Part shown: piece by piece, positions 28,816 through 29,714 of the stretch
Layout of the letters: the number at the start of each line of letters is the position of its first letter
Numbering within the stretch: the first letter of the stretch is position 1
NCBI GenBank assembly: GCA_026416115.1
Contig: JAOAFU010000054.1
Coordinates: forward strand, 1-35,619
From: Bacteroidales bacterium
GTDB lineage: Bacteria > Bacteroidota > Bacteroidia > Bacteroidales > DTGW01
DNA: 35,619 nucleotides
Direction of reading: 5' to 3'
Program-made: the position numbers and the translations under genes
Notes under the pieces: generated by a model
Database searches by the model: none
Told to the model about the DNA's origin: nothing
Seen by the model: the letters and a program-made list of their open reading frames with translations, nothing else

Positions 28816-29562
28816 TTATGTGTTCATTCCGCCACAAACATTAATTACCTGACCGCTTACATAAGAAGAGAGATCGGACGCCAAGAAAAGAGCAACATTA
28901 GCAACATCGTCAGGAGTACCACCACGACGTAATGGAATATTTTGCAACCATGCGTTACGCTGATCTTCAGGTAATTTGGCAGTCATATCGGTAATAATAA
29001 AACCGGGAGCGATAGCATTGCAACGTATATTACGAGAACCCAATTCCTTGGCTACCGACTTGGTTAATCCAATTAACCCAGCTTTAGATGCCGAATAATT
29101 GGCCTGGCCAGCATTTCCCGATACGCCGACGACCGAACTCATATTGATAATGCTACCTCCTTTCCTTCGAAGCATGGTATTGAGTACAGCTTTTGTGAAA
29201 TTAAAAGCCGACTTTAAATTTACCGTAATTACTGTATCCCACTGTTCTTCTGTCATTCTAAGCAAAAGAGTGTCGCGAGTAATGCCAGCATTGTTAACCA
29301 GAATATCGACCCCTCCGAAGTCGGCAACAATCTGGTCAACAGTCTTTTGTGTTTCGTCAAAAAGTGCAGCATTTGAAGCATAAGCTTTGGCTTTTATTCC
29401 CATAGCATTGAGTTCGGCCTCAAATGCTTTTACATTGTCATCATAAATTAAATCGGTAATAGCCACATGGGCACCCTCAGAGGCAAATTTCAGCGCAATT
29501 GCTTTGCCAATTCCTCTAGCTCCTCCGGTAATAATGGCAACTTTTCCTTCCAGTAACTTCAT
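28816..29562 (-). CDS. fabG: 3-oxoacyl-[acyl-carrier-protein] reductase
   Basis: Rossmann TGGARGIGKAIALKFASEGAHV, NNAGITRDTLLLRM, catalytic S...YSASKAGLIGLTKSVAKELGSRNIRCNAIAPGFI. Confidence 0.95.
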   Translation of the reverse strand: MKLLEGKVAIITGGARGIGKAIALKFASEGAHVAITDLIYDDNVKAFEAELNAMGIKAKAYASNAALFDETQKTVDQIVADFGGVDILVNNAGITRDTLLLRMTEEQWDTVITVNLKSAFNFTKAVLNTMLRRKGGSIINMSSVVGVSGNAGQANYSASKAGLIGLTKSVAKELGSRNIRCNAIAPGFIITDMTAKLPEDQRNAWLQNIPLRRGGTPDDVANVALFLASDLSSYVSGQVINVCGGMNT

Positions 29563-29580
29563 TCGTCATTTGTTTTTTTT

Positions 29581-29666
29581 CAAAGGCTCGATGTACCCAC
29601 ACGTCCCTTTATAACAAAGTAGGGATTTTCACATCGACCTTTGGGTTATACATTATTCATGTGGGT
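29581..29666 (-). ncRNA. Candidate cis-regulatory RNA (H-type pseudoknot) in the fabG 5' leader
   Basis: CAAAGGUCGAUGU pairs with ACAUCGAGCCUUUG (13 bp, one bulged G); ACCCACAUG (29666-29658) pairs with loop-side CGUGUGGGU (29603-29595); internal UCCCU/AGGGA hairpin. Confidence 0.5.
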
Positions 29667-29683
29667 TGTTAAACTTTGACAAG

Positions 29684-29714
29684 CAAAGTAAATAAAACTT
29701 GTTCAAAACGCAAA
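29684..29714 (-). promoter_or_regulatory. Candidate fabG promoter
   Basis: Minus strand TTTG (29714-29711)-N19-TTACTTTG (29691-29684); predicted start just upstream of the pseudoknot. Confidence 0.6.

Follow-up and report, generated by a model that had tools for sequence, protein, structure and literature searches.

The pseudoknotted fabG leader of a Bacteroidales genome as a probable old copy of a small repeat that inserts at start codons

The stretch of DNA analysed here, referred to as the window, is a contig of 35,619 nucleotides from a Bacteroidales bacterium (JAOAFU010000054.1; genome G000). It carries on its minus strand the fabG gene, whose ATG is located at 29562-29560, preceded by a leader and a promoter-like sequence (Table 1). 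Between promoter and fabG lie two interleaved helices, P1 (9 bp including one U-G) and P2 (13 bp with a single bulged G), which together make up a pseudoknot, and a hairpin, P3, is located in the loop, with GAAAA between the 5' strand of P2 and this hairpin on the minus strand. The initial annotation, made from the sequence alone, had described an H-type pseudoknot with a nested hairpin; all its strands were found at the positions it had given, on the minus strand, and the topology is borne out by the sequence and by the comparative evidence presented below. The three models used in this work (R1-R3) match the window at 29577-29668. The promoter core is identical in G001, which belongs to the same genus, and in G002, from another genus, and the fabG transcript therefore likely starts upstream of P1. 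An out-of-frame ATG found 7 nt upstream of the fabG ATG (ATGACGAATG, 29569-29560) opens a short frame overlapping fabG and is kept in G001.

Table 1. Features of the fabG leader in the window.
Feature	Position	Strand	Remark
Promoter-like TTTG-N19-TTACTTTG	29684..29714	-	core TATTTACTTTGC common to fabG of G001 and G002
Whole element (pseudoknot and A-rich 3' tail to the fabG ATG)	29563..29667	-	ends approximate
P1, 5' strand ACCCACATG	29658..29666	-	
Loop L1 AATAATGTATAACC, with conserved UAAC(C/A)CAAA block	29644..29657	-	alignments A5 and A6
P2, 5' strand CAAAGGTCGATGT	29631..29643	-	
P3, 5' strand TCCCT, hairpin nested in the loop	29621..29625	-	variable; missing in L038 and L044
P3, 3' strand AGGGA	29604..29608	-	
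P1, 3' strand CGTGTGGGT	29595..29603	-	abuts the 3' strand of P2
P2, 3' strand ACATCGAGCCTTTG	29581..29594	-	with the bulged G
Unpaired A-rich initiation region AAAAAAAACAAATGACGA	29563..29580	-	
fabG, 3-oxoacyl-ACP reductase	28816..29562	-	TIGR01830, 337 bits

Taken alone, the leader is not statistically exceptional. An interleaved helix pair of equal or greater strength was present in 39 of 3000 and 47 of 2000 dinucleotide shuffles (1.3-2.4%, two scoring schemes), and a scan over the 35.6 kb detected a pair at least that strong in 35 of 1110 segments; the nested fold of the leader gave z = -2.3. The statement in the initial annotation that the complementarity is hard to attribute to chance was too strong, since 1-3% of shuffles or segments match it, and the structure is made secure only by comparative evidence.

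In G001, whose FabG is 96% identical, the fabG leader is orthologous and shares the promoter core. Compared with the window, a U-A pair is replaced by C-G in P2 and by G-C in P3, and the U-G of P1 by U-A; no alignment of the hairpin loop is possible. In G002 (FabG 86% identical) the element is absent, and the ATG directly follows this promoter core; inspection by eye of the fabG leaders of 28 further genomes revealed no such element. Two other genomes, G091 and G194, have kept the element in place in orthologous leaders before the genes of an FKBP peptidyl-prolyl isomerase (PPIase), an OmpH protein and an S46 peptidase, and in one of these leader pairs P2 changes from GGATG/CATCC to TGGGT/ACCCA. 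In the orthologous pairs of G000/G001 and of G091/G194 the structure is retained while the loops diverge.

More distant relatives were found with models of increasing breadth. R1 was derived from a single sequence, that of the window, in which P2 and P3 were treated as paired and P1 as plain sequence, and was searched against 394 genomes of the order; it matched G001 and a leader in another family, flanked by a SusD-like gene and a 3-keto-disaccharide hydrolase gene, in which P1 is wholly recoded yet still pairs. R2, built from three sequences, added eight more convincing leaders, and others came from scanning 85,000 species genomes with a pattern, all of them in Bacteroidota apart from the metagenome-assembled genome CSMAG_1401, which is labelled Chlorobiota. 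R3 then led to the final set of 26 leaders from many Bacteroidota families. In their alignment 84% of cells pair, both sides change in 19 of 27 pairs, and the covariation score reaches 0.278, compared with 0.076 at most when the partners are slid; a version with 16 sequences gave 14 of 27 pairs and 0.244 against at most 0.066. P1, which was never modelled as a helix, still has four pairs in which both sides change (ACCCACAUG/CGUGUGGGU in the window, CCUGCAUG/CAUGCAGG in L034, CUCACAU/AUGUGAG in L074). P3 is free in sequence and is sometimes missing. The check proposed in the initial annotation, a search for covariation of both helices among relatives, therefore revealed compensatory changes in G001 as well as in the 26 leaders, and did not refute the structure; these comparisons support a conserved leader RNA with a pseudoknot. 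Matches in G251 (L035), G241 (L041) and G257 (L042) were rejected, their P1 or P2 pairing being unconvincing, and pattern matches in Oscillospiraceae, Chloroflexota, Acidobacteria, Endozoicomonas, Gpa_37 and a viral contig were considered chance hits, as the leader architecture is absent from them.

Among 384 genomes of the order, R3 had a match in 10, which belong to 8 families by the table, and over 278 genomes drawn from the whole phylum it matched only the window's own; these figures are a lower bound because this model misses the GA-type copies described below (G002 scores none). R2 in a class-wide search also matched only the window's genome, and a search of phages, plasmids and viral contigs for type I copies gave no match.

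The genes behind the leaders are unrelated: fabG, H+-PPase, OmpH, FKBP, nrfA (cytochrome c552), a GYD protein, S46 peptidase, a sugar hydrolase, a porin or porin-like protein, a carboxypeptidase-regulatory-like secreted protein and unknown secreted proteins. In all 26 leaders the distance from the end of the model to the gene ATG is 9-18 nt and the orientation is sense. A TAnnTTYG box (Bacteroidetes-type -7) occurs within 50 nt upstream in 9 of the 26, against 1.8 in shuffled sequences. OmpH/Skp-like genes from two lineages and FKBP PPIase genes from two families carry the leader (L074, L082, L049; L038, L073, L097), which might hint at an envelope theme. A conserved upstream reading frame (ATG AAA CCC ACA TG.) was considered and rejected: it is present in 7 of 17 leaders, with differing stops, and is better read as the old start codon.

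A sensitive R3 search of 18 genomes detected repeated copies in G001, G002 and G772. A count of the right-end pattern GRGTTCCATCCGACC gave 120 occurrences in G001 (one for the reversed control), 14 times in G002 (control 0), five times in G772, three times in G004 and once in G000; a comparison of the window DNA with its own genome likewise gave one copy. Many copies of G001 are no more than about 200 bp away from a contig end (C5, C11, C24, C42, C47, C49, C51, C61, C76, C79); the repeat thus interrupts the assembly, and 120 is an undercount. Copies are about 134-142 bp long in G001 and 91 bp in G002, where five are 97% alike; they begin after an ATG with AAACGAGCATG and end with TTTTCGG followed by ATG. 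In tandem arrays the ATG that closes one copy is also where the following copy begins, and nearly every junction has an ATG, usually followed by AA. The subfamily of G001 and G002 holds a GA/GA step in P1 and has a shorter P2. The right end contains a CATCCG...CGGATG hairpin, and the two ends are asymmetric.

The terminal ATG, the last of an array, opens a reading frame of at least 60 aa in 29 of 46 cases in G001 and in 8 of 10 in G002, so that 37 of 56 terminal ATGs are gene starts. Enolase, formyltransferase, cytidylyltransferase, signal peptidase II and nucleotidyltransferase domains start at such an ATG, as does the N-terminus of NadD. In the window, ATGAAA outside coding regions is a start codon in only 8 of 23 cases, which means that gene starts are over-represented among the sites of the element, although avoidance of coding sequence combined with an ATGAA target could explain much of this excess. 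Some copies of G001 are not at genes and some are 5'-truncated. At several loci of this genome (L145, L150, L152, L179 and others) the right half is intact and the left half missing or diverged, recalling 5' truncation or selection on the initiation region only. A second repeat type in G001, of about 125 bp (ATGAAACCTTCATGATTGTGCTCAAGCACAAACAC...TTTTATTCGG followed by ATG; L136, L139, L145, L149, L151, L155, L165, L181, L183-L185), is inserted in the same manner and is often the last of an array before the gene start. A third dispersed repeat at ATG was seen there too (ATGAATATAAAAACGCAAAGTGCGCTAAGTTTTTG...CTTTGCGTG...TTCGGATG; L155, L181, L184).

The whole window is syntenic with contig 65 of G001, at about 75% identity over a stretch of 37 kb, and occupied and empty sites can be compared directly. 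G001 has copies at the starts of the genes for a chemotaxis receptor (MCP; window 29790), a GH3 protein (31863) and a lipoprotein (about 34870), where the window has none; two more intergenic copies on contig 65, one of them upstream of DUF6340, are also missing in the window. The family has thus spread in G001 since the split of the two species or been lost in the window. The fabG copy is old: it predates the split, is common to both species and is structurally maintained. It has lost the ATGAAA on its left side, and the case for its having inserted at a start codon draws on its homology to the family and on the comparison with G002.

With its covarying structure, dispersal, position at start codons and pairs of occupied and empty sites, the fabG leader is probably an old copy of a mini-element that inserts at start codons and acts as a portable pseudoknotted 5'UTR. 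The element is non-coding, about 70-140 bp long and dispersed in genomes of the order. Its left end consists of (ATG)AAAC, the first strand of P1 and CATG, and its right part of the second strands of P1 and P2, an A/T-rich tail and CGG directly before ATG. Insertion would take place at ATG triplets, most visibly start codons; the host gene would be read on from the right-hand ATG of the element, which would turn into the 5'UTR. The transcript would then fold into the P1/P2 pseudoknot, with P3 optional, leaving a short A/U-rich stretch before the AUG, so that the leader might be packed away while the A-rich initiation region stays open, and the 5' end of the mRNA is probably protected by the fold. 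Initiation in Bacteroidetes does not use Shine-Dalgarno pairing and relies on unpaired A-rich sequence before the AUG (PMC6847099, PMC3155529); hence the insertion of a pseudoknot that leaves such a stretch may be tolerable, perhaps even favourable. The element may insulate initiation or stabilise the mRNA, and could in this way affect the translation of fabG or the stability of its transcript. As for its movement, asymmetric ends and a fixed ATG target are reminiscent of HUH/IS200-IS605 chemistry. A broader proposal, to which we give about even chances, is that this is a new kind of mobile element that targets the start codon, restores an ATG with its right end and provides the gene with a covarying, pseudoknotted 5'UTR, old copies such as that of fabG being kept as working regulatory leaders.

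Other explanations were weighed against this one. Chance complementarity in an AT-rich leader, for which the weak single-sequence statistics might speak, is refuted by the covariation across 26 sequences and the model matches in other families, and its probability is negligible. The initial annotation had favoured a regulatory RNA, possibly a riboswitch sensing a ligand of fatty-acid synthesis before fabG, and the compact pseudoknot immediately 5' of the initiation region, together with its conserved loop nucleotides, would suit such a function. However, the downstream genes share no pathway, the structure is missing from the fabG leaders of most relatives, and the related copies are mobile-like, high-copy repeats at ATG. 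In Rfam 15, by gathering score and E-value, no family (riboswitches, ribozymes, Bacteroidales-1 and others) was found in the leader or in ten related loci. Its regulatory-RNA reading therefore stands as far as a conserved pseudoknotted leader RNA is concerned, but finds no support for a fabG-specific riboswitch or fatty-acid control; such a riboswitch is highly improbable.

A trans-acting factor might instead recognise the pseudoknot, be it an RNA-binding protein, an sRNA or an envelope-stress factor, and control mostly envelope and secreted proteins. The OmpH/Skp-like, FKBP-type, S46 peptidase, porin-like and other exported proteins behind the leaders would fit, as would the conserved loop block UUUAACACAAA, but the leader also precedes fabG, H+-PPase and a GYD protein, the copies of G001 and G002 lie before enolase, NadD, purine and other genes with no theme, most genomes have few copies, and no binding partner is known; such control seems unlikely. 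A purely selfish element, rather unlikely in our view, would use the pseudoknot as a single-stranded DNA (or RNA) fold for a transposase or mobilising enzyme, for instance in an HUH/IS200-IS605-type insertion 3' of (G)ATG, and the fabG copy would be a functionless relic. The asymmetric ends, the fixed target, the right end in GATG with its hairpin, and the tandem insertions all agree with it, and Y1 transposases were detected in 10 of 11 genomes. P1 and P2 would pair equally well in single-stranded DNA: G-U pairs outnumber A-C mismatches 16 to 7 (p = 0.09, not significant), and with so weak an excess selection on RNA rather than on single-stranded DNA is not proven. Against a selfish relic speak the maintenance of structure despite diverging loops in the fabG leaders of G000/G001 and in the three leader pairs of G091/G194, the constant AUG spacing in 26 of 26 leaders, and the fact that no copy adjoins a Y1 transposase; nor were ends of the element found around any of 29 Y1_Tnp loci.

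If the start-codon element is real, an unannotated repeat family is able to exchange, in a single step, the 5' leaders of genes that have nothing in common, with the proteins left intact, which would be a direct route from mobile DNA to structured leaders, and its spread would rewire translation starts genome-wide without breaking genes. It also calls for caution, as covariation in a pseudoknotted leader does not by itself make it a riboswitch. The contrast between a genome with 120 copies and a sister with about two would make a natural experiment on leader structure and translation without Shine-Dalgarno pairing.

Among known structures, interleaved helices with a hairpin in the loop are found in H-type pseudoknot riboswitches (SAM-II, preQ1-II) and in HDV-like ribozymes. 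The leader shares this arrangement, its order P1-P2-P3-P1'-P2' being similar to that of HDV without P4, but differs in having no Rfam match and no common pathway downstream. HDV-like ribozymes have a J4/2 with the catalytic C between P1' and P2' and a P1 of about 7 bp starting with G. In all leaders but L045, P1' either touches P2' or is separated from it by 1-2 nt, leaving no place for such a J4/2, and the P1 of the leader starts with A, so a ribozyme of this type was rejected. In L045 (221-347; G126) an extra hairpin GTCCC...GGGAC between P1' and P2' completes an HDV-like strand order. An integron attC site was also rejected: GTTTAAC is present in loop L1, but its GTTRRRY partner is missing.

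IS200/IS605-derived elements and REP-RAYT systems have asymmetric ends, a subterminal hairpin and insertion 3' of a short fixed sequence. The element resembles them in all three respects, and the same genomes hold Y1 transposases; it differs in that no transposase gene adjoins any copy and no ends are shared with a Y1-bearing element. To our knowledge, neither a start-codon ATG as the target nor long-range P1/P2 pairing has been described for them. Like MITEs and the small dispersed repeats ERIC, Correia and REP/BIME (PMC10969869), the element is short, lacks a reading frame, occurs in many dispersed and tandem copies, mostly in noncoding DNA, and folds as a single strand. Unlike them, it has no terminal inverted repeats, as its ends AAACGAGC.. 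and ..TTTTCGGATG are not inverted, and no target-site duplication was found: the flanks share only ATG, the right one varying after it and the left one remaining AAAC. It also has a conserved interleaved pseudoknot, sits at the start ATG and brings a new one. Rickettsia palindromic elements are repeats of about 100-150 bp that enter genes without destroying them (PMC10969869). The element is of similar size and equally harmless to its genes, but those repeats lie within reading frames and are translated, whereas it sits at the start codon and would become a 5'UTR. A start-codon-inserting pseudoknotted repeat was not described in the literature searched or in Rfam. As a kind, therefore, the element belongs among the small dispersed mobile repeats, with a target and a structural core that are new.
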